Below are positions 1-57,651 of a DNA stretch of 64,000 nucleotides, in pieces. The DNA is from Candidatus Pararuminococcus gallinarum (GTDB lineage: Bacteria > Bacillota > Clostridia > Oscillospirales > Ruminococcaceae). Within the stretch, counting starts at the first letter, position 1, and each line of letters begins with the position of its first letter. The stretch is taken from assembly GCA_904419775.1 (NCBI GenBank), contig CAJFSX010000002.1, forward strand, positions 1 through 64,000. The letters are read 5' to 3'. Below the pieces are notes generated by a model. The model did no database searches and had not been told where the DNA came from. It worked only from the letters and a program-made list of their open reading frames with translations. A program made the position numbers and the translations under genes.

Positions 1-3000
1 CAGGCGCAGAGTAACTACAATCTCGTTTTCTCCTACCTGCAGCGGAATCTCTTCAGAGTAGACGCCGCTCTCCAGCGCCTCTTCTCCCAGCATGGCTGTA
101 ATGCCATCGGCAAAGAAGGCTTTCACCTGTACACCCTCTACCTCGTTTCCTACGGTAGCGGTGTAAGAGAAGGTGTCTTTGTCAAAGATGGGAGTAAGAG
201 TTCCTTCAGACAGCTCCAAGCCATCCAGGAGAGGTTTCTCGCCTACAGGAGGCTGTTCTTCCTCTTCCCTTGTGACAGTGATGGTGTAAGTCTTGTCTCC
301 CGCTACTACAGTGATGGTATTGGTGCCAACATCCAGGGCGATGTCCTCGGAGTAGGAGCCGGAGGCGACGTCCTTGCCGTTGACGGTAACAGCGGTGTCA
401 CCGGTGTAGGTGGGCATGACCTTGACAGAGGAGACGGAGTTTGCCACAGTGGCGGTGTAGGAGAGAGTATCCTTGTCAAAGGCAGGATCCAAGGTGCCGT
501 TGGAGAGCTCCAGATCACTCAGCTCGGTGGGAACGGGCGCTGGTTCCTTCCAGGCAGAGTTCATGGAATAGATGTTGAGGCTATCCACAGTAACATTGCC
601 GCCATTTGTAAAGAATTCCATACCGTTGCTTTCAGGATCAGGGAAGAAAACAGAGCTAACGGCGGAAATACCGTCATTGCCAAAGGCCTCAATGGCGCTG
701 GAATCTACTAGAATCCGCATCTTAATTTTATTGCCTTCAGGCTTAAGCTCCATATAGCTGACACCGGTATAGGAGATTCCGGATTTACTCTTATCCATCA
801 CCAAGCGCTGATTGGCGACATCATATTTGACAACAGTCTCCTGGGTGTCACCCTTGCGCAGTTTGAAACCAAATTCGGTGACGCCGTCGCCCAGGGTAAA
901 TTCACCTTCGATGTCCATAAGGGTGCCCTGTTTTCCATCCAGGATATTGGCGGAGTCAGGGGTGACCTCCACGCCGGTGCCCGAATAGATCAGTTCATCC
1001 CGCAGGCTTTCCAGCTCCTTGACAGGATAGCTGTACATCCGGATTCCGTCGTCAGTGGTGCGTAGGGTGGTTTCCAGAGGTACGGTCATAGCGCCGTTCC
1101 AAACCTTGGTCTCATCCAAAGCGTAGGCGGATTCTCTCAGCCAGCTGACAGAAATAATCCGATCATCGGGAGCGGCGTGGAAGGTCTGGGTGGCATAAAC
1201 AGTCTGATCGCCGCGGCTTTCCAGCCCGCTGAGATCAGCATTAAACTGGAAGGAATCACCGTTGTACCGCAAAGGATCGGTTTCCGGCTGGAAGGAAAGC
1301 TTTCCTTCCCCATCTTTGACGATGTCTCCGATGAGATAGAAGGAGCCGGCCGCGTTGTAGACCCATTTTTTGTTGGAGGAATCTCCGTCAACAGCTACCT
1401 GGTACATATCCGGGCACTCCCAGCTGATGGTGTTGCCGTTTTTCAGCTTCAATGTGCTGTTGTAGGTCCAGTTTTTCAGATCAGGAGAGGTGTACATCTT
1501 AACTTCACCAGAGGTCAGCAGAACCCAGGTGCCGCCGCCCGCCATTTCTGCGTCTTCATACCAGAAGACCTTGGGGTCAGCGCACCAGCCGTCGGCCAGC
1601 ACAGGAGCTCCATCCTGGTATTTGGTCCAGGTCAGGCCGCCGTCCTCGGTATAGGCAAGGCCGGTGGCGCCGCTGCCCCGGACAATCGCATATGCGAGGA
1701 CCATCCGCGCTTCCGGCGGGACAGACTCGTCGTAGAATCCAGCCGTGTTGTTGTAGTCGATAAATCCGCTGCCAGACCACATGTTGCCGTACTCATTGGG
1801 GGAGAGGGCCAGGGGAAGCTGGGTCCAATGAACCAGATCTTTGGATACAGCATGTCCCCAGTGCTTCTCATCGGTAGGAGACATACTATATGGATAGGTC
1901 TGGTAGAAGAAGTGGTATTCCCCGGTGGCAGCGTTATAGAGCATGCCGTTGGGGTCGTTCATAAAGGCGTATTGAGGCGTAAAGTGAAACTGGGGACGAT
2001 ATTTCTCGTTGTAGACGGTTTCGGGATCCGCGTCCTTGCGCACCCGCAGGGTAAAGGTACGGGAAATGTGCCCCACCGGATCTTCCGCCTTAATGGAAAT
2101 ATTGGTATAGCCGATGGCATTCAGGGGAACTGTCGCGGCCACACCGCTCTCGCACTCCTGCTTGTCGATGGAGAGGACAAAATCCTCCGGAGCCGTCAGG
2201 GTGATAGAGACAGAATCGGAACCCTCGTCGGCGACAGCTAAATACTCAGTTTTCCCTTCCACATAGGGCTCAGAGAGCTGGGCGCCAGAGAGCTGCATAT
2301 CGGTAATACGCGGATTTTGAGCAGGATAATAATTGACGTTATTAAAGGTAACGTCGCCGCCGTTGGTCATTAGGCCAAAATATTCGCCGGTGAAATCGGC
2401 GTCTACATAGGTGCCCACCAGGCCGCCATCCAGATAAAAGTTAAAGGTGCCGCCCTCCAAAGCTTCCAAGCGGAGGTGGTAATCCTTTTTCTCAATTTCT
2501 GCCTGGGTCAGGCCGCGCTGGACATTCCAGACCTCGGTACCACCGGTATTTTTGAGCATCTTGGTCTGGGTGCCCCACCGTTTGCCCACATTGATGCAGT
2601 ACCAGTGGGAATAGGGATCGTCGGGGTTCTGCACACCGAAGACCAGGCCGCCGATGCCGTCGCTGTTTTCAAGGTGCATGTCCCCTTCGAAGACAAAGGT
2701 TTCACTGCTGTCCACCGTGTCGGTAAACATGGCGAACATGTCCCCGCCTCCGATATTGTTGCCCCGATAACCCCGGGAGGTGGTGCTCCAGTCGCCTTGG
2801 ACACCGTGAATACCGTTTAAATTGGTGGTAAAGCCAACAGGATCGTTGTTAAAGAAGCGAATGTTCTCAAACTTCGCCTCGCAGCAATAGGTGGTCAGGC
2901 CGACATAGCCGGCCGCATACTCGTCATAGTTGGTGGAGATGATGGGATCGGGGTTGTTGCCGAGATAGACCTTGATATTGCCTTCGGCGTCCACATCCAG

Positions 3001-3978
3001 CTTGAGATGGAATTTTCCATCTACAATGGCGCCCTCAGGAATGGGCTCCCGGATATCCAGACCAGCTTGATTGCCCTCGTCAAAAAGACGAAGCTGGGAA
3101 TAGGTGGCTTTGATGCCGATCCAATCCACCCCCAGGTCGGTGCGGTTGACGGTGGAGAACAAAAATCCAGCGTCTCCGCCCTCTAAAAAGGTGATGTCCG
3201 CCTCCATGGTAAAGGCGTTGCCCTTGGTTTCGGAAAGGGTGTGGAAGTTACCATTGTTGTTAGGCACAGTGACCGCTCCGGTGAGCGGATCGACAATGGG
3301 AGAACCGGTCCAGCCGCCCAGGGATTCCTCATTTTCTGCGGGGGGAGTTTCGGTGTTCTCACGCAGGACAATATTCTCAAATTTTGCGCTGCCAAAATAG
3401 CTGGTAAATCCGATGTAGCCGCTGTGGTAGGCGTCGTACTGGTGGAAGATGACAGCCTGGCCGTTGACATAGACGCTGACGATATTGTCTTCTGTCACCG
3501 CCAATTTGAGGTGAACCTTTTCATTGTCCAAGGCGCCAGAGGGCAGATTTCCGTATTCATTGAGATTGGAGCCGGCATGGTCGGAGAAAAGCCGGACATT
3601 GGAAAATCCAATCTTGACGGCAGTCCAGTCGGTGCCGGGAGCCTCCCGATCGGTGACGCCGAAAATAAAGCCGGCGTCCACATAGCCGTCAGGAAAAGAG
3701 ACATCCGCCTCCAGGATGAAGGCATCAGCCGTCACCTCCGAAATGACGTGGTTGTTGTCTTCCAGACGATTGACGGTGATGGTACCGGCATCTTGATCCA
3801 CCGAGCAGTCGCCGGTAAAGGTGCCGTCAAAAATGTTGTCCGTGGCGCTGTAAGGTGCAGGACCATCAGCAGGGACATCGATGGCGCTGACCGACAGGCA
3901 GGAAAGCACCATCATCAGGGAAAGCACAAGGGACAATATCCTCCGTCCCGGCTTTCCGGAGTATACTCTTCTTCTCAT
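1..3978 (-). CDS. Secreted multidomain GH32 fructan hydrolase (partial, C-terminus beyond window)
   Basis: Secreted glycoside hydrolase family 32 enzyme, the family that cleaves fructans (levan, inulin) and sucrose-type bonds. 1326 codons are in the window and the frame stays open at the left edge. ATG at 3978 follows GGAGG. A signal peptide (about 1-32) precedes three LamG-like beta-sandwich modules (about 40-530, two carrying an AKFENI strand), a linker domain, the GH32 five-blade propeller (about 660-980) with NDPNG at 674-678 (D675 nucleophile) and the acid/base E854 in WECPD, a C-terminal sandwich, then two cadherin-like (PF12733 type) repeats. The usual RDP arginine is alanine (A800-D801-P802). 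The architecture matches the paralogue at 8746-12678, so a sorting tail probably lies beyond the edge. Family assignment is firm; exact substrate is not known. Confidence 0.93.
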   Translation of the reverse strand, partial: MRRRVYSGKPGRRILSLVLSLMMVLSCLSVSAIDVPADGPAPYSATDNIFDGTFTGDCSVDQDAGTITVNRLEDNNHVISEVTADAFILEADVSFPDGYVDAGFIFGVTDREAPGTDWTAVKIGFSNVRLFSDHAGSNLNEYGNLPSGALDNEKVHLKLAVTEDNIVSVYVNGQAVIFHQYDAYHSGYIGFTSYFGSAKFENIVLRENTETPPAENEESLGGWTGSPIVDPLTGAVTVPNNNGNFHTLSETKGNAFTMEADITFLEGGDAGFLFSTVNRTDLGVDWIGIKATYSQLRLFDEGNQAGLDIREPIPEGAIVDGKFHLKLDVDAEGNIKVYLGNNPDPIISTNYDEYAAGYVGLTTYCCEAKFENIRFFNNDPVGFTTNLNGIHGVQGDWSTTSRGYRGNNIGGGDMFAMFTDTVDSSETFVFEGDMHLENSDGIGGLVFGVQNPDDPYSHWYCINVGKRWGTQTKMLKNTGGTEVWNVQRGLTQAEIEKKDYHLRLEALEGGTFNFYLDGGLVGTYVDADFTGEYFGLMTNGGDVTFNNVNYYPAQNPRITDMQLSGAQLSEPYVEGKTEYLAVADEGSDSVSITLTAPEDFVLSIDKQECESGVAATVPLNAIGYTNISIKAEDPVGHISRTFTLRVRKDADPETVYNEKYRPQFHFTPQYAFMNDPNGMLYNAATGEYHFFYQTYPYSMSPTDEKHWGHAVSKDLVHWTQLPLALSPNEYGNMWSGSGFIDYNNTAGFYDESVPPEARMVLAYAIVRGSGATGLAYTEDGGLTWTKYQDGAPVLADGWCADPKVFWYEDAEMAGGGTWVLLTSGEVKMYTSPDLKNWTYNSTLKLKNGNTISWECPDMYQVAVDGDSSNKKWVYNAAGSFYLIGDIVKDGEGKLSFQPETDPLRYNGDSFQFNADLSGLESRGDQTVYATQTFHAAPDDRIISVSWLRESAYALDETKVWNGAMTVPLETTLRTTDDGIRMYSYPVKELESLRDELIYSGTGVEVTPDSANILDGKQGTLMDIEGEFTLGDGVTEFGFKLRKGDTQETVVKYDVANQRLVMDKSKSGISYTGVSYMELKPEGNKIKMRILVDSSAIEAFGNDGISAVSSVFFPDPESNGMEFFTNGGNVTVDSLNIYSMNSAWKEPAPVPTELSDLELSNGTLDPAFDKDTLSYTATVANSVSSVKVMPTYTGDTAVTVNGKDVASGSYSEDIALDVGTNTITVVAGDKTYTITVTREEEEQPPVGEKPLLDGLELSEGTLTPIFDKDTFSYTATVGNEVEGVQVKAFFADGITAMLGEEALESGVYSEEIPLQVGENEIVVTLRL

Positions 3979-4161
3979 AAGCAGCCTCCATTTGCTTTCA
4001 ATTGATTTATCTTAAGGCTTCCGGGGAAAACCTCAGGGGCAACCTTCCACGGGTTTTCCCTTAAAGCCTTTCGACCGCTTGCTTCTTGCGGGAAAAGGCT
4101 TCTCAATAGGCCCCAAACAGCCATTTTAGGGGCTTTCTCTCATAATTTTTCACTTAAGCTG
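3979..4161 (-). promoter_or_regulatory. Structured 5' leader of the first GH32 gene
   Basis: About 175 nt separate the predicted transcription start (near 4155) from the ATG at 3978. Read on the minus strand the leader holds two nested arm pairs: AAGCCTTT...AAAGGCTT and GGGAAAACC...GGTTTTCCC. No run of U follows either, so they do not look like simple terminators. A regulatory leader (protein-bound or attenuating) is inference. Confidence 0.4.
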
Positions 4162-4190
4162 ATTATAGCACCGGCAGAAAAACTGTACAA
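4162..4190 (-). promoter_or_regulatory. Sigma-A promoter of the first GH32 gene
   Basis: On the minus strand TTGTAC (4185-4190) is followed after 17 nt by a consensus TATAAT (4162-4167). No other good promoter lies between it and the GH32 start. Confidence 0.7.
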
Positions 4191-4654
4191 TGATCGCATA
4201 TTTTGCCCCTTTAAAATCTGGAAATTTGTACTTTGAATATTCCGTTAAAATAGCAAAGGAATCAAATTCTTTTTATAAAAATCATCTAGACATGTACTAA
4301 CAAGTTGCTGTATTTTCATACAAGAGAAGAACTTCTTCAATCAAACTAATGAATTTTAGTGTGACAAATTGGATGAAAGTACAAAATTATAAAAGCTTCA
4401 AAAGCCTATTTCCGCGTCTTTCAGCACCGCAGAGAGATCTGGCTGAAAAAAGAGTGTCTTCCGCTTCTCCTGCTGAGATAAAATTTTTTCAGCCAGATTT
4501 TTATCCGGCAATTATAAAAGTTGGTGACTAACCACAAGAAAAACAAAAAGCGTGTAAAAACTGCCGCGGAGAACGGTGCCCGGCAGAGGCCGGCCGTAAG
4601 AAAGGGGCATATGATGATTCTGTACGATATTTTTCTACAGGGGGTGAAACACAA
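4191..4654. other. AT-rich intergenic stretch with a 15-bp inverted repeat
   Basis: No credible coding region: short open frames on both strands lack ribosome sites. It contains a perfect 15-bp inverted repeat (arms 4437-4451 and 4484-4498, ATCTGGCTGAAAAAA) around a 32-nt loop, with T-rich sequence after the right arm. It could be a bidirectional terminator-like element or part of a small RNA; nothing else recognised. Confidence 0.4.
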
Positions 4655-4876
4655 ATGATGATGATTGCCACAGTCCGGGAGGTTAGGGATGACAGCCTGC
4701 TTGTAAGAAACCGCGCAAACGGCCAGGATGTAGTGGTGCACACAAACTGTACAGGGTGTTTTTGTGTCGGCGATATTGTCAGTATCTTGTTTAACGGGAT
4801 CATGACCAATAGCCTTCCGCCGCAGATTACGGCTACCAATATCCGGCGGATTTTCTCCCGCGGTTTTTGCCGGTAA
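4655..4876 (+). CDS. Small Cys-containing protein, DUF3221/OB-fold-like
   Basis: A 73-residue protein starting at the first of three ATG codons, behind GGGGGTG at a good distance. It runs as short beta strands (IATVREVRDDSLLVRN), a CTGCFC triplet-cysteine turn near residues 32-37, then GDIVSILFNG and PPQITATNI. The GD.V...G...S.P.QI.A.NI pattern resembles the DUF3221/YobA-type small OB-like fold, recalled by eye and not tested. It is monocistronic: a strong hairpin terminator follows at 4917. No function can be assigned; the cysteine cluster could bind metal or form a disulfide. Confidence 0.7.
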   Translation: MMMIATVREVRDDSLLVRNRANGQDVVVHTNCTGCFCVGDIVSILFNGIMTNSLPPQITATNIRRIFSRGFCR

Positions 4877-4916
4877 TTTTGCAGGGAACTACCAACTACC
4901 CAATCTATACGATACC

Positions 4917-4953
4917 AGCGCTGGATCAAATGATATTGATCCAGCGCTTTTTG
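4917..4953 (+). terminator. Rho-independent terminator of the small Cys protein gene
   Basis: Arms AGCGCTGGATCAA (4917-4929) and TTGATCCAGCGCT (4936-4948), 6-nt loop, then TTTTT. Confidence 0.9.
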
Positions 4954-5006
4954 CGGTGGTGATTTCGGAACATAGGAGAATCTTTTTAAACAAATTCTCA
5001 CAGTTA

Positions 5007-5035
5007 TTGTTATTTTGCCCTGAATCCGCTATAAT
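5007..5035 (+). promoter_or_regulatory. Promoter of xpaC-telA
   Basis: TTGTTA (5007-5012), 17-nt spacer, TATAAT (5030-5035), 45 nt before the xpaC start. Confidence 0.7.
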
Positions 5036-5079
5036 GAATTTGATTATTTGTGTTTCGTTCCACAGAATGGAGGAAGAGC

Positions 5080-6396
5080 ATGAGAGAAGACGAGTTGTCC
5101 AGGTTGGGGAGAGAAGTTGGAAGAGCAGTGCGCAATGTTTTAAACTCCAAAGATTTCGATGACCTGAGGACATCTATAGATTCTGCTGTGAGGAATATAG
5201 GACGTACTCCGGGAAGCCAGCCACCTCCCTTCGGGCAGGAACCCTTTCGGGATTCCTACAACCCTCAAGGTCCGGATAGAAGCGGTCAGTGGCAGCCGGG
5301 ATCACAACAGGTCCCTCCAAACCAAGGCCAGTGGCAGGCGCCTCCCAGACAAAACCAGTGGCGGGGAGCAAGCCAGCGCTGGCAAAGCAGAAACCCAGCC
5401 GGACAGCAGCCTTTCCGGCCTTATACCCCGCCTACCATGAACCGGCAGAATAGAGCTGCCTACCGGGCCAAGGGTCCTTCCGATGCCGGTACCCTGATGA
5501 TGGTGCTGGGAATCATTTTCACCATTTTGTTCAGTTTTTCTATTGTAAATACAGTGTTCCAGTTTATCGGCGGAGGCTTGGAATCCTTGGCCGAATTGGC
5601 CTCTTTATTCCTGCTTCTGATCGGCAGCATTGTACTGCTCTGCGTAGGGAAGAGCAAAAGAGACTGGATCAAGCGTTTTCGGGTTTACGCGGCGAAATTG
5701 CAGGGCAGAAACTTTGCCACTGTCAAGGAGTTATCCGAAGCGGTAGGATTGCCGGAGGAATATGTGGCCCGGGATCTGCAGAAAATGATAGAAAAAAGGC
5801 TATTTCCCCAGGGCCATATGGATGAACAGAAAACTTGCATCATGACCGATCAAGAAACCTACGCCCAGTACTTGAAGACCCAGGAGAACCTGAAAAAACG
5901 CCAAGAAGAGGAGCGGAAGGAAAAAGAGCTTTGGGAAAAGGATCCGGAGGCGGCGGCCCTTCATGAGATGCTTGTGGAGGGAGCCCGTTACCGGGAGGAG
6001 ATCCGGCAAGCCAATGACGCCATTCCGGGAGAAATCATCTCCCAGAAGCTGGATCGTTTAGAGAATGTGACAGCGAAGATCTTTGAGTATGTGGAAAAAC
6101 ATCCCAAGAAGCAGCCGGAGATCCGGAAGTTTATGAGCTATTATCTCCCCATCACCCTCAAGCTGGTGGGCGCTTACCGGGATTTTGATGCCCAACCGGT
6201 GCAGGGGGAGAACATCATCTCCGCGAAAAAGGAGATTGAGGATACCCTGGATACCATTAATCTGGCCTTTGAAAATCTGCTGGATGGCCTGTTTGAAGAT
6301 GTGGCCATGGATATTTCCACCGATATTTCCGTTCTAGAAACCATGCTGGCTCAGGAGGGCCTGACAGAGGAAAAGTTCGGCTCTGGAGAAAAATAG
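5080..6396 (+). CDS. xpaC: XpaC family (5-bromo-4-chloroindolyl phosphate hydrolysis) protein
   Basis: A 438-residue protein of the XpaC family, whose name comes from a Bacillus hydrolysis phenotype; its molecular role is not established. The ATG at 5080 follows GGAGGAAG; an ATG ten codons earlier has no site. Residues about 45-125 are a Gln/Pro/Arg-rich disordered linker, two hydrophobic segments follow (about 137-160 and 170-190), then a winged-helix-like stretch (TVKELSEAVGLPEEYVARDLQKM) and a long charged helical C-terminus. It is directly followed, 56 nt on, by telA, the usual partner in Firmicutes, so both probably act together at the membrane in envelope stress or toxic-anion/antibiotic tolerance; that joint role is family knowledge plus inference. 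Confidence 0.85.
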   Translation: MREDELSRLGREVGRAVRNVLNSKDFDDLRTSIDSAVRNIGRTPGSQPPPFGQEPFRDSYNPQGPDRSGQWQPGSQQVPPNQGQWQAPPRQNQWRGASQRWQSRNPAGQQPFRPYTPPTMNRQNRAAYRAKGPSDAGTLMMVLGIIFTILFSFSIVNTVFQFIGGGLESLAELASLFLLLIGSIVLLCVGKSKRDWIKRFRVYAAKLQGRNFATVKELSEAVGLPEEYVARDLQKMIEKRLFPQGHMDEQKTCIMTDQETYAQYLKTQENLKKRQEEERKEKELWEKDPEAAALHEMLVEGARYREEIRQANDAIPGEIISQKLDRLENVTAKIFEYVEKHPKKQPEIRKFMSYYLPITLKLVGAYRDFDAQPVQGENIISAKKEIEDTLDTINLAFENLLDGLFEDVAMDISTDISVLETMLAQEGLTEEKFGSGEK

Positions 6397-6452
6397 AAGT
6401 TTGGCGATAAAGCCCGTTTCTCAATTTGAAATTCCAAAGGAGGAATCTTGGC

Positions 6453-7601
6453 ATGAGCGAAGAAATCAAAGAAGTCCCCAGCTTGACCCTAGAACCTTTT
6501 GCAGAAGAAGCGCCGGTGGCGCCTGCCGCCGCGGAAACATCTCCGGCCCAGCCGCCGGAGGAAGCGGTTTTGGATGAGAGCAACCTGACCGAAGAAGAGC
6601 GGGAGATGGTAGCGGAGTTTGCGGAGAAAATTGAGCTGAGCAATTCCAATATGGTGATCCAGTACGGCGCTGGTGCTCAAAAAAAGATCGCGGACTTTTC
6701 AGAAACCGCCCTGTCCAATGTCCGGACCAAGGATCTGGGGGAAATTGGGGACATGATCTCCGGTGTGGTCACCGAGCTCAAAAGCTTTGATGTGGAGGAA
6801 AATGAAAAGGGATTTTTTAGCTTCTTTAAGCGCACCTCCAACAAAATTACCGCATTGAAGGCCAAATATGATAAAGCAGAAGCCAATGTGGATAAAATCT
6901 CCCATGCTTTGGAAGGACATCAGATCCAGCTGCTGAAGGATGTGGCGATGCTGGATAAAATGTATGAACTCAACAAGGTCTATTTCAAAGAGCTTTCCAT
7001 GTATATCCTGGCTGGTAAAAAGAAACTGAAACAGGTGCAGGAACAGGAGCTCCCCGTTTTAACGCAAAAGGCGAAGGAATCGGGGCTCCCTGAGGACGCC
7101 CAGGCAGCCAATGACCTGGCGGCGCAATGCAACCGTTTTGAAAAGAAAATCCATGACCTGGAGCTCACCCGGATGATCTCCATCCAGATGGCGCCCCAGA
7201 TCCGTCTGGTGCAATCCAATGATACCCTGATGTCAGATAAAATCCAGTCTACCCTGGTCAACACCATCCCCCTGTGGAAGAGCCAAATGGTACTGGCGCT
7301 GGGTGTAGCACATTCCCAGCAGGCGGCGGAGGCCCAGCGGCAGGTCACCGATATGACCAATGAGCTGCTGCGCAAAAACGCGGAGACGCTGAAGATGGCC
7401 ACCGTGGAGACCGCCAAGGAATCGGAGCGGGGCATTGTGGATATGGAAACCCTTAAACATACCAACGAAACCCTGATCTCTACCCTGGATGAGGTTGTCC
7501 GCATTCAGGAGGAAGGCCGGGAAAAACGCCGTGCGGCGGAATTGGAGCTTGGCCGTATTGAAGGCGAGCTCAAGCAGAAGCTGCTGGATATCCGCAAGTA
7601 A
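6453..7601 (+). CDS. telA: TelA family toxic anion resistance protein
   Basis: A 382-residue TelA/KlaA-type protein; relatives are linked to tellurite and envelope-antibiotic tolerance. ATG at 6453 follows AAAGGAGG. An acidic Ala/Pro-rich N-terminus (1-45) precedes the conserved core beginning NSNMVIQYGAGAQKKIADFS, with FFSFFKRTSNKI and HALEGHQIQLLKDVAMLDKM in the middle and a highly charged coiled-coil C-terminus ending GELKQKLLDIRK. No signal peptide or membrane span, so it is probably cytosolic. It follows xpaC on the same transcript and is closed by a terminator at 7615. Family call is confident; biochemical activity is unknown. Confidence 0.92.
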   Translation: MSEEIKEVPSLTLEPFAEEAPVAPAAAETSPAQPPEEAVLDESNLTEEEREMVAEFAEKIELSNSNMVIQYGAGAQKKIADFSETALSNVRTKDLGEIGDMISGVVTELKSFDVEENEKGFFSFFKRTSNKITALKAKYDKAEANVDKISHALEGHQIQLLKDVAMLDKMYELNKVYFKELSMYILAGKKKLKQVQEQELPVLTQKAKESGLPEDAQAANDLAAQCNRFEKKIHDLELTRMISIQMAPQIRLVQSNDTLMSDKIQSTLVNTIPLWKSQMVLALGVAHSQQAAEAQRQVTDMTNELLRKNAETLKMATVETAKESERGIVDMETLKHTNETLISTLDEVVRIQEEGREKRRAAELELGRIEGELKQKLLDIRK

Positions 7602-8745: not shown

Positions 8746-11700
8746 TTATTTTCTCTTACGAGAGATTCCTATGGCGATGGCGGCACTTCCGGCTAATAAG
8801 GCCAAAGCCATGGGAATTCCACTGTTGTCACCAGAGGAAGGATTGGTCTTGCCTGTTGTAGAGGAGGATCCTCCATTGTCCTCCAAGCCGCCCTCAGGCC
8901 AGGTGAAATCGCTGCCTCCGCCGGGGATGGAAGGCTTAGCGGTGGCTGGCGGCCCCTCCGGGTCTTCCGGTTCCACCGGGATGTCTGCTTCCGCCCGGGT
9001 GACTATGAGGGTATAGACGGTTTCCTCACCGCCAGTATCCCTGACCAGGACCTGGATGGTGTTGTCTCCGACAGCCAGTGAGATATCCCCGGAGGCTGTG
9101 CCGCTGGCGACCTCAACGCCGCCGATAAAGACGCCGCCCTCCCCGGTGAAGGTGGGGGTGATGGTGATAGAATCTATATCATATCCCACAGACGCGCTGT
9201 AGTTGAGGACGTCGGAAGCAAAAGCAGGATCCAACCTGCCTTCTGAAAGCTCCAGTCCGGTGAGGGTGGCAGGATCTTCGGATTCAGGAGGCGTGGGAAG
9301 GCCCTCTGGACGGTCCATTTCCCTCCAGGTGGATTTCATGGAATAAATCTCCATGGAATCGATGGTCACATTGCCGCCGGCGGTAAAGAATTCCATGCCG
9401 GTGCTGTCGGGATCGTTGTAGTAATAGAGGTTGGAGGAAGACTCTCCATCGTTGCCGAAGACATCAATAATAGAGGTATCTACCAGGATCCGCAATTTTA
9501 CTTTGCCATCTTCCATGGGAGACAGCGCCATATCATAGATGCCGCTGACAATGTCAGGGCGTCCGTTGCTGTTGCGGTCTAAGGAGATACGCTGAGTTTC
9601 CGTGTTGTAGGTGACGACAACCTTCTGCTGTTCTTTGGTGCGAAGGTTAAACCCGAAGCTTGTTGCGCCCTCTGAAGTAAATGTGGCCTCGATATCATAA
9701 AGCTGGCCGGTAACATCCTCCAAGATATTCTCGGTGTCCGGAGTGACGGTGAGGCCTTCCGCAGAGTAGATCAAATCTTTGCGGATGGAGTCCACCTCCT
9801 CTACAGGATAAGAGTTGAGGAGATACTGTCCGTTTTCATATTTGAGGGTGGTTTCCAAGGGCAGAGACTGAGCGCCTTGCCACTGTTTGCTATCTTCTGC
9901 GCTGAGGAAATAGTCGCGCATCCAGCTGACCAGGATCCGCCTGCCCTGGGGATCGTTGTAGTAGCTCTGGGTGGCATACATCTCACCCACATACATGGGG
10001 GAGATAGCGTCGGTTTCCGCTTCGAATTTATAAAGCCCGTCTTCGTCTTTGACCAGGTCGCCCACCACATAGAAGGTGCCGCCGCCGGTATAGACCCATT
10101 TCACGTTGTCAGGATCCCCGTTGACAGGCAGCGGGAAGAAGTCGGGGCACTCGGAATGGATTTCCCCGCCGCTGGCGTAGGTGAGTTCGTCGTTGAGGGT
10201 CCATTCGATAAGGTTCTCTGAGGTGAAGATACGCCCACGGCCGCCGGCCACAATCATCAGCCAGAAGCCGCCGTTTTTATAGCTGTCATCTTCCACCCAG
10301 AGGATCTTGGGATCACGGAATCCTTCTCCGTATTTATTCCCTTTATTTTTGATGATGGGATTTCCCTCATATTTGATCCAGGTGGTACCATAATCGGTAG
10401 AATAGGCCAGGGATTGTTTCTGATTTCCGTAGGTTTCGTCGCCGCCCTGGTTGGTATAAATGGCGACCAACCGGGAAGCGGGAGGTGTGCTTTCATCAAA
10501 TAGGCCGCTGGTATTCTTTTCGTCAATGACGCCGCATCCGGACCAAATATTGCCCAGATTGTCCGCCGGAATGGCCACTGGAAGTTCCGTCCAGGCGACC
10601 AAATCCTTGGAGATGGCATGGCCCCAAGTGGTACCTTCCCCAGCAGCATACTGGTAATACAGATGATACAGGCCGGTGGTGGCGTCATACATCAGGCCGT
10701 TGGGGTCATTCATCCAGTTTGCCTCTTCCGAGAAGTGGAATTGGTTTCGGTATTTTTCGGTATAGGCGGTGGCAGGATCCTGCTGCCGCTTAACTTTAAA
10801 ATTAGTGGATGTGACAAAGCCGCTTTCCTTGTCGGCAATTGAAAGGACAAAGGAATTTTCCCCTACTTCCAGAGGAACCTCGCAGGGCTGCCCATTTTCG
10901 GCTGGGATGCCATCAATAGTAATGGTGCCCTCTCCTGAAATTGTGGGGATGAAGGTGACAGATTCAGTGTCATAAGGGACAAACCCGCGGTAGTTATAGA
11001 CGTCGGGGGAGAAAGCGGGCAATAGGTCAAAGCCCTCGGTCTCCAGCCCGGTGAGCAGGGAGATGGAGGAAGGATCCTTTTCCTCATAGTAGACGTTTTG
11101 GTAGGTGGCGGTGCAGTTATAGAGGTTGAGACCGAACACCCCCTCAGCCAGCTCGTCATTGGAGCCGGTGACGGCCAGCACGTCGTCTACATAAAGGTTG
11201 AGGGCCGGGCCGTAGGTTTCCACCCGGATGTGATAGGTGTCCTTATTTTCCGGCAGCTGATAGGTGTTGCCGATCTGGGCCTCCCCGGTGACTTCTCCCT
11301 CCGCGTTCTGGGTGAAGCGGAGGATGCGGGCGGTGCCGCCCCGGGAAAGTGTGGCAATATAATAGGCGGAATGATCTTCTTTGGCGCGGAAGATGGGGCC
11401 GCCGGCGCCGCCTCCGTTGAAGGTTAGATCCATTTCATAGACAAAGTTTTTAGCGCTGGTGGTGGAAAAGGCCGCAAAGTTGAGCGATCCAGTGCCTTGG
11501 TATCCCTCTTCCATGTTGATCCACTGGCCGGTTTGGCCCGCCCAGCCTTCAATATTGGTCTTGAAATTGGGCACAACGGGAGGTGTGTTATCCGTAAATT
11601 CGATGTTTTCAAACTTCGCGGCGCAGTTAAAGGTCATGAGCCCCACATAGCCACCGTTCAGGCGGGGATAGTTTTTCTCAATGAGACGTTCGCCATCCAC

Positions 11701-12678
11701 ATCTACATAGATATCCCCTTCAGCAGTAACCTCCACCCGCAGATGGTAAGGCTCGGTGACAGAATCGGGAAGGAAGGCATAGACCTGCAGGCCGTTTTCA
11801 GAATCCTGCCAGGTCCCTTCACAGAACAGACGGACCTGTCCGCCGCCCAGATGGACGCCGCACCAGGAGCCGCCGCTGTCGGTGGGGGAGAGGCAGTCGA
11901 AGATCAGGCCGCCAGTAGCGGCGCCGCTCAGGAAGGTGACGTCCGCCTCATACACAAAGGCTTCAGAATAAGTCTCGGAAATGACCTTGTTGTTTTTATC
12001 CGGCACCTCGGCGGGTACCTCGTTGATGGTAACCACGCCGTCATGGTCGATGGTGAAATAGTTTCCCGAAAGCTCCCCTAAGGCCTCGGAGGGCGGCGGG
12101 GTGGTGTCGGTGAACTGGATGTTCTCAAATCTTGCTTTGCTGGAATAGGTGGTGAAGCCCACATAGCCGCCTTCCAGGCCGCTGTAGGCTTTGTTGATGA
12201 CCTCCGTCCCGTCCACAGAGACGATGATGGCGGTCTGGGTGACCTCCAACCGCAGCTCATAGGGTTCCGCTGCGCCGGAGGGAATGCCTACGATCTCGTT
12301 AAGCCCGTTTTCAGTGTCGGCGTAGTTCCCTTCGCAGAAGAGCCGGACACTGCCGCTGCCGATGTGCAGGGCGCACCAGTCAGCCCCGGGATCGGTGGGG
12401 GATTTGGCGTTGAAAAGCAGGCCGCCGGTGCCGCCCTCCAAGAAGCTGAGGTCAGCCTCAAAGATAAAGGTTTCGGCATAGGTGTCGGAGATGACATAAT
12501 TGTTGCCATTGACAATGTTGGCGATGACAGCGTCTCCTTCTATGGAGTAATCCCCTGAAAAATTGCCCAGGGGGCTTTCCGCTGACGCCGTCAAGGGGAC
12601 AAACATGGTGATCACCATGCTCAACGCCAGCACCAGGGAAAACAGCCGGTTTCTTCTCCGCTTTTTCATCGGTTGCAT
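8746..12678 (-). CDS. Secreted, wall-anchored multidomain GH32 fructan hydrolase
   Basis: A 1310-residue surface enzyme of GH32, expected to hydrolyse fructans outside the cell. The ATG at 12678 sits 10 nt after AAGGAG; an upstream in-frame ATG at 12738 has no site. Signal peptide about 1-35 (KKRRRNRLFSLVLALSM), three LamG-like modules (about 20-515), a cadherin-like linker, GH32 propeller with N657-D658-P-N-G, R788-D789-P790 and E843 in SECPD all intact, beta-sandwich, a PF12733-type cadherin-like repeat (about 1145-1235), a Gly/Ser/Thr/Pro linker, and a sorting-like tail NPSSG (1279-1283), hydrophobic span and SRKRK end. It is a paralogue of the protein ending the left edge. No fructan transporter or regulator is nearby. 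Confidence 0.95.
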   Translation of the reverse strand: MQPMKKRRRNRLFSLVLALSMVITMFVPLTASAESPLGNFSGDYSIEGDAVIANIVNGNNYVISDTYAETFIFEADLSFLEGGTGGLLFNAKSPTDPGADWCALHIGSGSVRLFCEGNYADTENGLNEIVGIPSGAAEPYELRLEVTQTAIIVSVDGTEVINKAYSGLEGGYVGFTTYSSKARFENIQFTDTTPPPSEALGELSGNYFTIDHDGVVTINEVPAEVPDKNNKVISETYSEAFVYEADVTFLSGAATGGLIFDCLSPTDSGGSWCGVHLGGGQVRLFCEGTWQDSENGLQVYAFLPDSVTEPYHLRVEVTAEGDIYVDVDGERLIEKNYPRLNGGYVGLMTFNCAAKFENIEFTDNTPPVVPNFKTNIEGWAGQTGQWINMEEGYQGTGSLNFAAFSTTSAKNFVYEMDLTFNGGGAGGPIFRAKEDHSAYYIATLSRGGTARILRFTQNAEGEVTGEAQIGNTYQLPENKDTYHIRVETYGPALNLYVDDVLAVTGSNDELAEGVFGLNLYNCTATYQNVYYEEKDPSSISLLTGLETEGFDLLPAFSPDVYNYRGFVPYDTESVTFIPTISGEGTITIDGIPAENGQPCEVPLEVGENSFVLSIADKESGFVTSTNFKVKRQQDPATAYTEKYRNQFHFSEEANWMNDPNGLMYDATTGLYHLYYQYAAGEGTTWGHAISKDLVAWTELPVAIPADNLGNIWSGCGVIDEKNTSGLFDESTPPASRLVAIYTNQGGDETYGNQKQSLAYSTDYGTTWIKYEGNPIIKNKGNKYGEGFRDPKILWVEDDSYKNGGFWLMIVAGGRGRIFTSENLIEWTLNDELTYASGGEIHSECPDFFPLPVNGDPDNVKWVYTGGGTFYVVGDLVKDEDGLYKFEAETDAISPMYVGEMYATQSYYNDPQGRRILVSWMRDYFLSAEDSKQWQGAQSLPLETTLKYENGQYLLNSYPVEEVDSIRKDLIYSAEGLTVTPDTENILEDVTGQLYDIEATFTSEGATSFGFNLRTKEQQKVVVTYNTETQRISLDRNSNGRPDIVSGIYDMALSPMEDGKVKLRILVDTSIIDVFGNDGESSSNLYYYNDPDSTGMEFFTAGGNVTIDSMEIYSMKSTWREMDRPEGLPTPPESEDPATLTGLELSEGRLDPAFASDVLNYSASVGYDIDSITITPTFTGEGGVFIGGVEVASGTASGDISLAVGDNTIQVLVRDTGGEETVYTLIVTRAEADIPVEPEDPEGPPATAKPSIPGGGSDFTWPEGGLEDNGGSSSTTGKTNPSSGDNSGIPMALALLAGSAAIAIGISRKRK

Positions 12679-12781
12679 TTGCACTTCACTCCTTCTTCTC
12701 TCCAGATGCTTGTGAAGACAATGGGATAGAGGCTTCATGACTTTTTTAAAGCATAATAATCTTCACAATTACTTAATTATA

Positions 12782-23510: not shown

Positions 23511-25439
23511 CTACTTGCAGTGGATATGGCTTGGCACCTGGTCCCACTTGACAGGATACCCCGCCCCATGGGAGCAGAAGACGGAATCGGGTGTGTTCTC
23601 CACATCCCGCTCCGGGTCATAGCCCTTGGCTTCGATGACCTCTTGGGCATTGTGGCAGGGCGCATACCCCTCAAACCGGAGGCTGATCCGGCCGGTGCCG
23701 CGGGTGGCGGAGATGAGAGTCTGGGGATAGTCCGCCATGCAGGCGGCGGGCGCCCGCCCACGGACCTCCATCCGCTCCCCTACAGACTGGGGAGGCTCGG
23801 CCTCCCCCTGCATCCGTTGAATGTCAAACAGGACCCGTCCCAGGTCTCCGCTGTCCACCTCGATCACAAAGGAGAGGATGGGTTCCAGCAGCACACTTTC
23901 CCCGCTCATCAGCCCTTGGCGGATGGCCCGGTAGGTGGCCTCCCGGAAGTCGCCTCCCTCGGTGTGCTTAAGATGGGCCCGACCTGTGATCAAGGTGATG
24001 ACCACATCGGTCAGCGGGGCGCCGGTGAGCACTCCCAGATGCTCCTTTTCCAGCACATGGGTGCGGATCAGCCGCTGCCAGTTTTGATCCAGCACATCGG
24101 TGGAACACCGGCTCTCAAAGGTGATGCCGCTGCCCGGCTTTCCCGGAGAGAGGCGCAGATGAACCTCCGCGTAATGCCGCAATGGCTCAAAGTGGCCATA
24201 ACCCATGGCGGGAGCGGCGATGGTCTCTTTATATAAAATTTGCCCGGGGCCAAATTCCACCTTTAGCCCATAGCGCTGGGCGGCCAGGGATTTAAGCACT
24301 TCCAGCTGCACCTTTCCCATGACCTGGATCCGCAGCTCCCCCAGCTTCGGGTTCCATTGGGTGTGAAGGGATGGATCTTCGTCGGCCAGTTGGGAGAAGA
24401 TGGACACCGCTTCCGGGGCGGGGACAGTAGCGGGAAAGAGAACTTGGGAGGAGAAAAGGGGAGCGCAGAGGCCGGGGCTAAGATCTTCTTTGCCGCCGAA
24501 GCCCTGACCTGCCTGGGAATGCTGTAAGCCGGTGACGGCTACAATATCCCCGGCCTGGGCGCTGTCGACGCTTTCATATTTCGCCCCCTGATACCGGCGG
24601 ATTTCATTGACCTTTTCCCCTAGGATTTCATCCTTGACCCGCAATATGCCGCTGCGCAGCCGAAGAAAGGCCAGACGATTGCCCTTGGCGTCGTGGCGGA
24701 TTTGATAAATATGGCCGGAGAGGGGGGCATCTAGGTCAAATTCTACCTGGGTGAGAGCATGCAGGGCAGATAAAATCTCATCGATTCCCGTCCCTTGCAG
24801 AGCCGATCCGGATAAACAGGGGAAAAGGCGTTCCTCCTGAATGAGCCGGCGGGCGGCAGAGAGCCATGCCCTCTCGTCGTAGCCTCCCTCCAGATAAAGG
24901 GCTAGGAGGTCGTCGTCCTGGGCGGCGATATCCTCGCACAGCTCCCCTGAAAAACGGACGCCATCGAACTCCCCATCAAAGCTTTTGACATAGGGGGAGA
25001 ATTTTTCCTGCAATTTTTGCAGCACCCCTACAGGGTCGGCGCCGGGGCGGTCTATTTTGTTGAGAAAAAGAAAGGTGGGGATTCCCTTTGCCCTCAGAAG
25101 CCGCCAGATGGTTTCGGTATGAGCCTGGATGCCCTCGGCACAGCTGACAATAAGGATAGCGTAGTCGAGGACGCCCAGCACCCGCTCCATCTCAGCGGAA
25201 AAATCGGCGTGGCCAGGGGTGTCCACCAGGATATATTCCTCTCCCTCCAGGGAAAAGGAAGCCATACCGGAAAAGATGGTGATGCCCCGCTCCCGCTCCA
25301 GGGGATGGCTGTCCAAAAAGGCATTTTGATGATCCACCCGGCCTAGGGTGCGGATGGCATGGGTATGGTAGAGCAGTTGCTCGGAAAAGGTGGTTTTGCC
25401 CGCGTCTACATGGGCGAAGATACCGATGGCCTTTTTCAT
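23511..25439 (-). CDS. EF-G/TetM-like translational GTPase, probably not a tetracycline-resistance factor
   Basis: A 642-residue translation factor with the length and domains of ribosomal protection proteins. ATG at 25439 follows AAAGGGG. GTPase motifs: AHVDAGKTT (9-17), RERGIT (49-54), DTPGH (73-77), NKID (127-130). Domains II-V follow in TetM order. The domain IV loop that in Tet(M)/Tet(O) carries the YSPVS segment displacing the drug reads HLKHT here (489-493), followed by an EF-G-like GGDFREA. This argues for a chromosomal paralogue of unknown role, although automatic pipelines would call it tet. It heads the minus-strand run with SDR, GIY-YIG and macro-domain genes. Confidence 0.85.
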   Translation of the reverse strand: MKKAIGIFAHVDAGKTTFSEQLLYHTHAIRTLGRVDHQNAFLDSHPLERERGITIFSGMASFSLEGEEYILVDTPGHADFSAEMERVLGVLDYAILIVSCAEGIQAHTETIWRLLRAKGIPTFLFLNKIDRPGADPVGVLQKLQEKFSPYVKSFDGEFDGVRFSGELCEDIAAQDDDLLALYLEGGYDERAWLSAARRLIQEERLFPCLSGSALQGTGIDEILSALHALTQVEFDLDAPLSGHIYQIRHDAKGNRLAFLRLRSGILRVKDEILGEKVNEIRRYQGAKYESVDSAQAGDIVAVTGLQHSQAGQGFGGKEDLSPGLCAPLFSSQVLFPATVPAPEAVSIFSQLADEDPSLHTQWNPKLGELRIQVMGKVQLEVLKSLAAQRYGLKVEFGPGQILYKETIAAPAMGYGHFEPLRHYAEVHLRLSPGKPGSGITFESRCSTDVLDQNWQRLIRTHVLEKEHLGVLTGAPLTDVVITLITGRAHLKHTEGGDFREATYRAIRQGLMSGESVLLEPILSFVIEVDSGDLGRVLFDIQRMQGEAEPPQSVGERMEVRGRAPAACMADYPQTLISATRGTGRISLRFEGYAPCHNAQEVIEAKGYDPERDVENTPDSVFCSHGAGYPVKWDQVPSHIHCK

Positions 25440-25627
25440 GAAGCATTCCCCTTTCTCGAACCTTTCAAACGGTTCTATTGTAGCCCATTTGAAAACCAGG
25501 CGCAAGGTATTTGCGGTTTTATCCTGATTCGACTATAATAGGAATAGAACCACTGACATGGGGCGAGGCAATCTATGAATATCCAGCGATTCTCACCCTT
25601 TGCAGCGGCTCAGATAGGAGGACATGT

Positions 25628-55118: not shown

Positions 55119-57575
55119 TCAGCGGGATTTTCTGCGGGAATGGGAGGCCGCCCCTATACTGGCCGCCGCAATCAGCAGGAGAACTACACAGGGCGTCAAA
55201 AGACGGTCGCCGGTTGAGGGATTGGCCTTAGACTCTGAATCGGACTCAGCCGGCAGGGAAGAAGAACCCACCGTGGGCTTGCTTTGGGAGGAACCGCCGA
55301 TGGAGGGGATGGGTTCCCGTGTTGTGTATCCGCACACGGCGCATGTCCTTTCCCTCATGCCGTTGCCAAGTATTGTGGAGGCGCCGAAAACATGCGGGGA
55401 TAGGCCGCTTTTGTCCCCGCAGGGGCACTCGTGCCAGTGATGGCTGGCGCTGAACTCCCAGTCCTCCCCGTAAGTATGGGTGTGAGGTTTGGTGACATCC
55501 GCGCTTCCCGCAGGATCCCCCGCGCCGCCTTTGAGCACCGGATTTTCGGTGTATACAATGATGTCTTGGCTGATGGCGTCTCCGCCCTGGTATTGCTTAT
55601 CCACAACCTTTTGGGAATCCCCGCCGGTGCTTTCCAGATAGCTGACGGAAATCTTTCCATTCCCGGAAATGGCGTCCCCGCCAGGGCCGTCGTTGCCTGT
55701 GCCTCCATATACAATCAAAGCGCCCTGGCCTGAAACCGTCCCGCCGTTTAAAAAGAGGCCGGTTCCACCTTGAGGGGCATAAATTGAGAGGTTATCCCCG
55801 CCGCCCTTTACGGTCAAGGAGCTGTTTTCGTCAATGGAGAGTTCGCCGTTTACCTGCAGCGCCGTCTGGCCTGGCAGGGATCCGGCGCCGTCGTCGCCGG
55901 TGATTGAGTTGGTCCCCTTCACGGTGACGGTGCCGTTGACAATAACGACGGTATTCACATCGTCTTTAACGGCGCCGTCAGTGAGGAAGCGGGCGTTGGA
56001 ATCGATCTCAGCGTCCTGTAAGACACTGCCGTCGTAAAGGGTCAGAGTGTCTGTTAAAGCGGAATCAGTATTCATAGAGAAGGTGCCCCCGTGAACTTCA
56101 ATGGGGCCGAAAGCGACAGAATCGCTGAGGGTGAGGGATCCCCCTCTTTCCACAATGATTTTTACGCTGCTATAGAATTTCATATTGACAAAGGTTACAT
56201 CGCAGCCTTCGGGTATGACCAGGGTATCGGTCGCAACAGATTGGTTATTGCCGATAATCCCGTAAAGGCCGGATTCATGAGAGCCGTAAATAGTTTTGAG
56301 ACCGACTGGGACGACAGCGTGATCGCTCATCCTGATTTCGTAGGGCTCCATGTCCCAGGAAGTTACAGAACTTTCTAATGTGGAGAAGCGTTCCTTTAAA
56401 GTTTCTTTTCCCGTATAGATTCTCAGGGGCACGCTGTTGCTGGAAACGGTCTGCCCCTGATCCGTTAAGGAAACGGAAACATAATAGGTGCCGGCTTTAG
56501 CGGGGGTGCCCGCTACGACAACGCTATCAAAGAGATAATAGGCGCTCATACCGCTATCAGCGGGGGAGAGGGAGACTTCCAGGACGGCATCACTGTTTTT
56601 CTGACTATAGTCATCATAATCCTGTTTCCCGCCGTCGCCTTCCGTAACAAACACATCCAGATAGTCTTGATAACCAGTCTGTCCTGAAATGACGCAATCC
56701 AGTTCCCCATCGAGGCTGACGGACAGTTGGGGGTGGACGATGAGAGAGATCTGCCTGCTGACATTTTCATCTCCTGCTTTAGCGGTAACGGTAATGGTAA
56801 TGATTCCTTCCGTCGAGGGAGTTCCGCTGAGGACGATCATATCTCCGACGGCTTCAGCCGAAATGCCGGAATGTTCCGGTGTGACTTGAAGCTCTACTAC
56901 CGCTTTGCCTTTGTTTGTACCGCTGATTTCATAGGAGATCTGGCGGGAATAGGGGAGCATCATAACACCGTCAAGCGAAGTTTCCTCGATGGACAGCCCT
57001 AGAGGGATATGGGTCGGGATGGGCGTCCCCAGGTTTTCAGGCTCAACAGTGCCGCCGATATACTGTGCCGATCCATTATTTTCAATATCCCCGCTAGAGA
57101 AGGTGCAGCTGTTGAATATGGCCGCGCCGTTGTTGACAATGGTATCGCTGAAGGTGCAATTGACAAATGTAACCGAAGCCCCCTGGGGAATGGTGATGGA
57201 TTTGTCGGTCATTCGAAAGTCAATATACTGGACGGTGATGTGGCTGCCGACAGCGAAACTGAGCGTATCACCGGAAGTATTATAGCCGATCTGCCTGGTT
57301 TTTGCCTCATCTGTCCCCCAAAGAAAGTTCTTATCCCACCCGCTCAGCAAGGTGACCTGCTGAGGGATGACAGCGGTTCCGCTGCCTACGGCGCCGCAGG
57401 TGACCTTGACTGTGGTAGCTTCGCCAAGGCTTTCCAGCCAGCCGTCCAGATCGGGGTAATTATCTGTGACCAGCAGATCTGTTCCGCCTGTCGCTTGGGT
57501 TTGCATGACAGGAAGACCTACGGCAACCATGCAAATACATAAAAGGCTTGCCAATAAGGATTTCCACTTTCTCAT
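55119..57575 (-). CDS. Wall-anchored surface protein with beta-helix-like and Ig-like regions
   Basis: An 818-residue secreted protein. ATG at 57575 after TAGGAGGAAAC. Signal peptide about 1-30. Residues 90-180 and 440-690 carry short repeating strands (TIPQGASVTFVNCTFSD, VIPEGCDVTFVNMKFYSS, NGTVTVKGTNSITG) of parallel beta-helix type; two Ig/BIG-like domains lie about 200-410. Near 715-770 is a HWHECPCGDKSGL ... RTCAVCGYTT zinc-finger-like module frequent in gut Clostridia surface proteins. A Ser/Pro linker leads to NPSTG (785-789), a hydrophobic span and HSRRKSR: a sortase signal. No catalytic site recognised. Expression is governed by an unusual operator at 57602-57699. Confidence 0.85.
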   Translation of the reverse strand: MRKWKSLLASLLCICMVAVGLPVMQTQATGGTDLLVTDNYPDLDGWLESLGEATTVKVTCGAVGSGTAVIPQQVTLLSGWDKNFLWGTDEAKTRQIGYNTSGDTLSFAVGSHITVQYIDFRMTDKSITIPQGASVTFVNCTFSDTIVNNGAAIFNSCTFSSGDIENNGSAQYIGGTVEPENLGTPIPTHIPLGLSIEETSLDGVMMLPYSRQISYEISGTNKGKAVVELQVTPEHSGISAEAVGDMIVLSGTPSTEGIITITVTAKAGDENVSRQISLIVHPQLSVSLDGELDCVISGQTGYQDYLDVFVTEGDGGKQDYDDYSQKNSDAVLEVSLSPADSGMSAYYLFDSVVVAGTPAKAGTYYVSVSLTDQGQTVSSNSVPLRIYTGKETLKERFSTLESSVTSWDMEPYEIRMSDHAVVPVGLKTIYGSHESGLYGIIGNNQSVATDTLVIPEGCDVTFVNMKFYSSVKIIVERGGSLTLSDSVAFGPIEVHGGTFSMNTDSALTDTLTLYDGSVLQDAEIDSNARFLTDGAVKDDVNTVVIVNGTVTVKGTNSITGDDGAGSLPGQTALQVNGELSIDENSSLTVKGGGDNLSIYAPQGGTGLFLNGGTVSGQGALIVYGGTGNDGPGGDAISGNGKISVSYLESTGGDSQKVVDKQYQGGDAISQDIIVYTENPVLKGGAGDPAGSADVTKPHTHTYGEDWEFSASHHWHECPCGDKSGLSPHVFGASTILGNGMRERTCAVCGYTTREPIPSIGGSSQSKPTVGSSSLPAESDSESKANPSTGDRLLTPCVVLLLIAAASIGAASHSRRKSR

Positions 57576-57601
57576 GATGTTTCCTCCTAAGATATATTTA
57601 T

Positions 57602-57625
57602 TTAAGTTAACCATTGCTAACTTAA
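57602..57625. promoter_or_regulatory. Proximal dyad of the surface-protein promoter
   Basis: TTAAGTTA (57602-57609) and TAACTTAA (57618-57625). The inner 16-mer GTTAACCATTGCTAAC (57606-57621) matches the reverse complement of the distal site (57668-57683) at 14 of 16 positions. Confidence 0.7.
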
Positions 57626-57651
57626 TAGCGGAACTGATACTCATCCGAAGA

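Follow-up and report, generated by a model that had tools for sequence, protein, structure and literature searches.

The GH32 protein encoded at the beginning of the window (the whole 64,000-nucleotide stretch analysed, C2:1-64000, from a genome of 2,158,152 bases in 121 contigs) lacks the Arg of the RDP motif, which is replaced by Ala, and retains a complete catalytic triad. The absence of this Arg is an inherited trait of a clade of three paralogues and is paralleled independently in a second GH32 lineage. Because this second branch has also lost the Arg, and has the same two rare residues (a Thr and an Asn), the site looks rebuilt, not broken. The best reading, which has about an even chance of being right, is an active site that has been rebuilt without Arg, is probably still catalytic, and has an altered recognition of sugars.

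The motif can be read directly from the codons. On the minus strand, positions 1573-1584 are TGC GCT GAC CCC, which encode C799-A800-D801-P802, and K803 is next. The nucleophile D675 (within FMNDPNG), the stabiliser D801, and the acid/base E854 (within WECPD) complete the triad. Thus, the observations of the earlier note, that the first GH32 paralogue has Ala for the RDP Arg together with the nucleophile and the acid/base, and that the second paralogue has an intact RDP (it reads GFRDPK), are all borne out. A800 lies opposite the RDP Arg in the phmmer alignments of all five best PDB chains and falls inside Glyco_hydro_32N (residues 665-981, 177.9 bits with a cut-off of 22.1). A single sequencing error was considered as the source of the Ala and rejected, since two more paralogues in the genome are without the Arg and have other residues there.

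By sequence and fold, the module is a GH32 member, although not a canonical RDP-type beta-fructosidase, given A800 in place of the Arg. Both Pfam families are matched well above their cut-offs (PF00251, 177.9 vs 22.1 bits; PF08244, 113.6 vs 21.9 bits), while the scores for the NCBIfam models scrB_fam (162.0 vs 356.4) and BfrA (125.5 vs 900) fall short of theirs. An AlphaFold2 model of the module, built with 48 relatives, has a pLDDT of 92.4. Its best solved match is the endo-inulinase 3sc7 (Z 44.4, rmsd 1.9 over 445 residues), followed by 8i12 (Z 43.4) and the exo-inulinase 1y4w (Z 41.9), and the matched entries have the GH32 fold of a five-bladed propeller plus a beta-sandwich.

The features of the two GH32 genes are collected in Table 1. 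The first protein (P0001) begins with a stretch that looks by eye like a signal peptide. A region of the 3keto-disac_hyd (3-keto-disaccharide-hydrolase) type follows, in which residues 64-205 give one weak match, below the cut-off, and stretches farther downstream resemble this match by eye. GH32N and GH32C come next, and then Cadherin-like domains. Nine window proteins were scanned with profiles for context, including TelA, an ARMT1-like protein, UPF0047, an Fe-alcohol dehydrogenase, CitMHS, and polyphosphate kinase; no sugar pathway is indicated by these nine. Elsewhere in the window, an EF-G-like GTPase (23511-25505, minus strand) has a tetracycline ribosomal protection model as its closest match (395.6 bits vs a cut-off of 775), and an 841-residue ORF (55119-57644, minus strand) matches neither Pfam nor NCBIfam models at E 0.001.

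Table 1. Features of the GH32 genes, in window positions; residue numbers are those of the protein, with domain numbers in brackets
Feature	Position	Strand	Remarks
GH32 protein 1 (P0001, win1)	1..3978	-	1326 residues within the window; gene truncated where contig C2 begins
GH32 module	529..2001	-	protein residues 660-1150 (domain 1-491); Pfam PF00251/PF08244, AlphaFold2
NDPNG with nucleophile D675 (D16)	1945..1959	-	direct reading
Cys-Ala-Asp-Pro replacing x-Arg-Asp-Pro	1573..1584	-	A800 (141) for Arg; stabiliser D801 (142) kept
Thr822 (T163)	1513..1515	-	just past the strand antiparallel to the strand following D801
Lys846 (K187)	1441..1443	-	basic residue specific to clade I, eight positions ahead of E854; could supply a compensating charge
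WECPD with acid/base E854 (E195)	1408..1422	-	direct reading
Asn875 (N216)	1354..1356	-	at the end of a strand running antiparallel to that following E854-C-P
GH32C beta-sandwich	565..1017	-	Pfam
Cadherin-like domain	265..519	-	best of three stretches; Pfam
GH32 protein 2 (win2)	8746..12738	-	paralogue with intact RDP, for comparison; 12678 with the internal Met as start

As far as the accessible text of the published work goes, the RDP Arg is described as completely conserved, and it has been proposed as a proton source for the acid/base. In the fructofuranosidase (Ffase) of S. occidentalis, Arg178 is reported to contact both the -1 fructose and the acid/base and to belong to the network that fixes Glu230 (PMC8010047). 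In the K. cicerisporus exo-inulinase KcINU1, the substitutions R181L and R181K are reported to leave undetectable activity on inulin and sucrose (PMC7545266). From such accounts, a canonical enzyme that simply lost the Arg would be expected to become inactive; for a lineage to remain viable without it, either compensation or a different job is therefore needed. They also make the suggestion of the earlier note, that activity or specificity may differ, a fair one. For the neighbouring Asp, reports diverge: that of CscA is described as essential (D161A leaves 0.04%; PMC6563369), whereas changing that of BmSUC1 to Ala (D181A) reportedly gives higher activity (PMC5877544). Because BmSUC1 tolerates this change, GH32 enzymes differ in how far they depend on the RDP motif. 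The accessible part of the BT1760 endo-levanase paper gives no mutant of the Arg (PMC6560043). No report of an Arg-less GH32 was found in the text consulted from papers retrieved in the open-licence PMC literature, and a search of that literature for a GH32 pseudoenzyme likewise found nothing.

There are 14 GH32N matches in the genome, 11 with the Arg and three without. The three are the window gene (WCADPK, with Ala) and the paralogues C24b (GVGDPK, with Gly; L040) and C28 (GSFDPK, with Phe; L047), which share 65% and 57% identity, respectively, with the window module. Together they form clade I with support of 100/99, and the support is 100/100 once T163, N216, and the columns preceding the stabiliser Asp are removed. 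The Arg would thus have been lost once in clade I, before its duplications and inside the 14-domain GH32 expansion. All three genes are long multidomain frames (1337, 1467, and 1452 codons) that no stop interrupts and that end only where a contig does, and the loop preceding the Arg position is short in all three domains relative to the paralogues that keep the Arg. Pairwise dN/dS (NG86) is 0.15 for win1-C24b, 0.26 for win1-C28, and 0.21 for C24b-C28, at a dS of 1.6-1.8, which is near saturation. All 30 of the other near-invariant columns, defined by conservation in at least 93% of the 211 comparison rows, are retained by the three paralogues.

Other features of the expansion are also seen. 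Many of the 14 domains sit in very long proteins in this genome of 2.16 Mb, and several contigs start or stop inside GH32 genes, as if repeats had broken the assembly. In C19 (L045, ORF 3-5003, minus strand), RDP is intact and ECP has become DCT, changing the acid/base Glu to Asp; in C6b (L038, ORF 2743-7389, minus strand), RDP is kept and NDPNG has become DDPNG; and in C44 (L048, ORF 972-3158, minus strand), where profile positions 1-189 alone are matched, the frame stops shortly past ECP.

Clade I has so far been seen in a single genome. No near match turned up in the 396 family, 394 order, and 371 class genomes sampled (the samples overlap, and in each genome scoring covered the 3-4 best candidates); the best scores outside the genome are 474 bits (family), 358 bits (order), and 489 bits (class), compared with at least 942 for clade I. 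No close relative is present among the best 80 species-genome loci listed (at most 41% identity in the best segment). The 1094 matching plasmid records are all less than 60% identical, and at most 39.5% among the 15 matches listed; two viral-contig loci are 27-28% identical.

How rarely the Arg is lost was counted with an HMM from a GH32 alignment made for this work, run over 282 loci and the window. The 360 hits reduce to 295 distinct rows, 248 with the four key columns filled, and 236 with Asp/Asp/Glu at the triad. Arg is present in 231 of these 236 rows, which come from samples selected for their similarity to the window clade or for relatedness, not spread evenly across all GH32; the exceptions are three Gly, one Ala, and one Phe. 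A sixth Arg-less row (G645) reads G141, D142, T163, E195, and N216; the program divided it into two parts, and it lies outside the 236. The 12 rows dropped at the triad filter consist of eight with Arg and Glu as the nucleophile, one with Arg and another acid/base (C19), and three non-Arg rows in which a triad residue is missing or misaligned: L102 (Phe, with Ala as the acid/base), L109 (Gln), and L033 (His). A smaller set gives a similar count, 218 of 224 with Arg and six without. Among the best 80 species-genome loci, 76 yield 87 motif sets, with R-D-P in the searched stretch of each, and four loci yield no set. Many active GH32 enzymes with Ala at this position, which the earlier note had named as evidence against its own point, do not appear in this sample (Ala in 1 of 236). 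Since 231 of 236 rows keep the Arg and two paralogues in the same genome are also without it, its absence is more than chance. The L102 locus, from a Bacteroidetes MAG, contains within 1-5799 adjacent GH32-like ORFs with FDP or YDP and with ACP, in which the acid/base Glu is changed to Ala; this is another divergent GH32-like group.

The remaining Arg-less domains make up clade II (L210/L025, L211, and L212), which has Gly at the Arg site. It is found in three species, which belong to two genera of a single other family in the same order, and L211 and L212 are 68% and 57% identical to L210/L025, respectively. In a tree of 45 rows, the two Arg-less groups require two changes, a result that long branches may influence (the clade II stem is 1.36). 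A single origin of all Arg-less domains was tried and rejected: forcing them together lowers lnL by 64.3 (AU p 8.9e-14). Within clade II, dN is 0.25-0.37 and dS is 2.73 or saturated. Among the near-invariant columns, 28 of 30 are kept in all rows; column 116 is Ile in all three members, and column 120 is Glu in one. The acid/base motif reads FRECPD, with an Arg immediately before the Glu. The ORFs are single-module (537, 544, and 560 residues), and in two of the three species a DUF4838/GH67N-type gene lies directly upstream of the GH32 gene (L242 6181-9738; L243 5663-9123), a neighbour that hints at a different substrate context for clade II.

Twelve positions are specific to clade I, that is, they have one residue in all three domains and this residue in less than 6% of 211 comparison rows (220 minus six Arg-less rows, two of L102, and one of L033; two of the 211 are themselves non-Arg, Gln in L109 and Val in L101). 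Two of the 12 residues are also fixed in clade II, T163 (T822) and N216 (N875), and the other ten are not. Both residues are therefore present in all six Arg-less domains. Among the 231 Arg-bearing triad rows, T163 is found in eight, N216 in four (five in another alignment), and the pair in one, a Longicatena caecimuris GH32 (L059, 4459-10305) that keeps RDP. The Arg-bearing exo-inulinase of A. awamori likewise has Thr aligned at 163. Because both residues occur in Arg-bearing rows, neither requires loss of the Arg. The pair, being compatible with the Arg, could be permissive, and the L. caecimuris domain could represent a permissive intermediate.

Such sharing is uncommon between distant trios. 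In a control of 600 pairs of trios (50-75% identical within a trio and 22-38% on average between trios, with Arg-less rows excluded), residues fixed in both trios and found in less than 6% elsewhere were counted. None is shared in 596 pairs, one in four, and two in no pair; as the trios overlap and are not independent, these counts serve as a guide and not as an exact p.

DSSP assignment of the model suggests where the two residues lie. D801 precedes a strand at domain residues 144-149, with the next strand at 157-162; E854 precedes a strand at 197-204, which a turn at 205-206 joins to the strand at 207-217. From this strand register, T163 would be near residues 141-143, and N216 would be opposite E195. 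By alignment and the numbering in PMC8010047, N216 would lie four residues before Asn254 of the S. occidentalis Ffase, which is reported to help bind acceptor sugars (PMC8010047).

Taken together, these findings favour a site rebuilt rather than abandoned, in which the nucleophile, stabiliser, and acid/base are retained. Asn875 beside Glu854 and Thr822 beside Asp801 would most likely assume part of the role of the Arg in holding and tuning the Glu, with their hydrogen bonds partly standing in for the guanidinium beside Glu854 and Asp801. Loss of the Arg would make the pocket larger and less charged at the place where this residue contacted sugars, and the vacated space, with the shorter loop, would change which sugars fit. 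Cleavage of a beta-fructofuranoside-type bond would most likely be retained, with a changed preference for substrate or linkage. Several points speak against a rebuilt, catalytic site: the Arg position varies (Ala, Gly, Phe) in clade I, as in a relaxed site; the results for R181L/R181K and CscA D161A imply that a loss within the motif would be harmful to a canonical enzyme; T163 and N216 also occur in Arg-bearing rows; and clade II lacks ten of the twelve residues specific to clade I.

The main rival holds that this is a surface fructan-binding protein, which would hold fructan for the Arg-bearing paralogues without turning it over and would keep the triad as part of the sugar pocket. Such a role, binding rather than cleavage, had been raised in the earlier note; it is weakened by the retention of the triad and of 30/30 other columns in all three paralogues, and is now unlikely. 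The protein is large and secreted-looking, with accessory domains, the eleven Arg-bearing paralogues could perform the cleavage, and both the Ala/Gly/Phe variation at the Arg site and the undetectable activity reported for the R181L and R181K exo-inulinase are as a binding protein would have it. Against this, all six Arg-less domains, across two independent lineages, retain the nucleophile Asp and the acid/base Glu, the Thr and Asn are common to both groups, and clade II consists of single-module ORFs of 537-560 residues, which do not readily suggest a surface scaffold.

It is quite improbable that a basic residue elsewhere stands in for the Arg, leaving chemistry and specificity little changed. 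The candidates would be K846 (domain K187), which lies in the loop before E854, is present in all three clade I domains and in 2.6% of comparison rows, and could be a compensating residue, and, in clade II, the Arg of FRECPD. Another Arg filling the site was a possibility that the earlier note had set against its own claim, and the aligned residues show one candidate for such a role in clade I, K846; clade II has no counterpart to it and instead has the Arg before the Glu. The candidate basic residues thus differ in place between the groups, whereas the Thr and Asn coincide, and Lys substituting for the Arg itself reportedly failed in KcINU1. Finally, a decaying duplicate, a weakly active or dead copy being lost from a growing family, would fit a genome with 14 GH32 domains in 2.16 Mb, some with other motif changes (C19, C6b, C44), but is very improbable given three long frames without stops, a dN/dS of 0.15-0.26, a parallel loss maintained in three clade II species, and the intact triad and 30/30 other conserved columns after a dS of ~1.6-1.8, a divergence over which a dead copy is expected to lose some of them.

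If the rebuilt, catalytic site is taken a step further, two independent lineages would have evolved a working Arg-free GH-J site, with an Asn-Thr pair for the Arg, and would act on a substrate poorly handled by canonical GH32 enzymes, while the Arg would be chemically dispensable for GH-J catalysis; this is a tentative proposal and somewhat doubtful. Domains that naturally lack the Arg but keep an intact triad allow the role of this residue to be tested directly, and they may mark fructan-active enzymes with new specificity.

Among known systems, the GH32 inulinases (A. ficuum endo-inulinase 3sc7/3rwk, InuAMN8 8i12, and A. awamori 1y4w) have the same fold, triad, and most of the conserved motifs. 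They differ in having Arg before the stabiliser Asp, where the window protein has Ala, together with Thr822/Asn875 and a short preceding loop. In Lac161_ORF10, which has a GH-J-like propeller, the Arg is likewise described as replaced (KDP for RDP), but this protein is a DUF377/PF04041 beta-galactosidase, not a GH32 member, and its authors allow other alignments (PMC5342196). The plant defective invertases, such as Nin88 (PMC11821009), are likewise natural GH32 members with altered conserved residues. These are reported to lose Trp47 and Asp239, or NDPN, while the window clade keeps NDPN and the corresponding Trp, and the window module has both NDPNG and W48 (domain numbering; equated with Trp47 through the WG motif as described in PMC7545266). 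A parallel at the residue itself is KcINU1 R181L/R181K (PMC7545266), in which the residue lost is the same as in clade I. However, the KcINU1 mutants are engineered single changes and are reported as inactive, whereas in the natural clade other residues near the site have changed as well.
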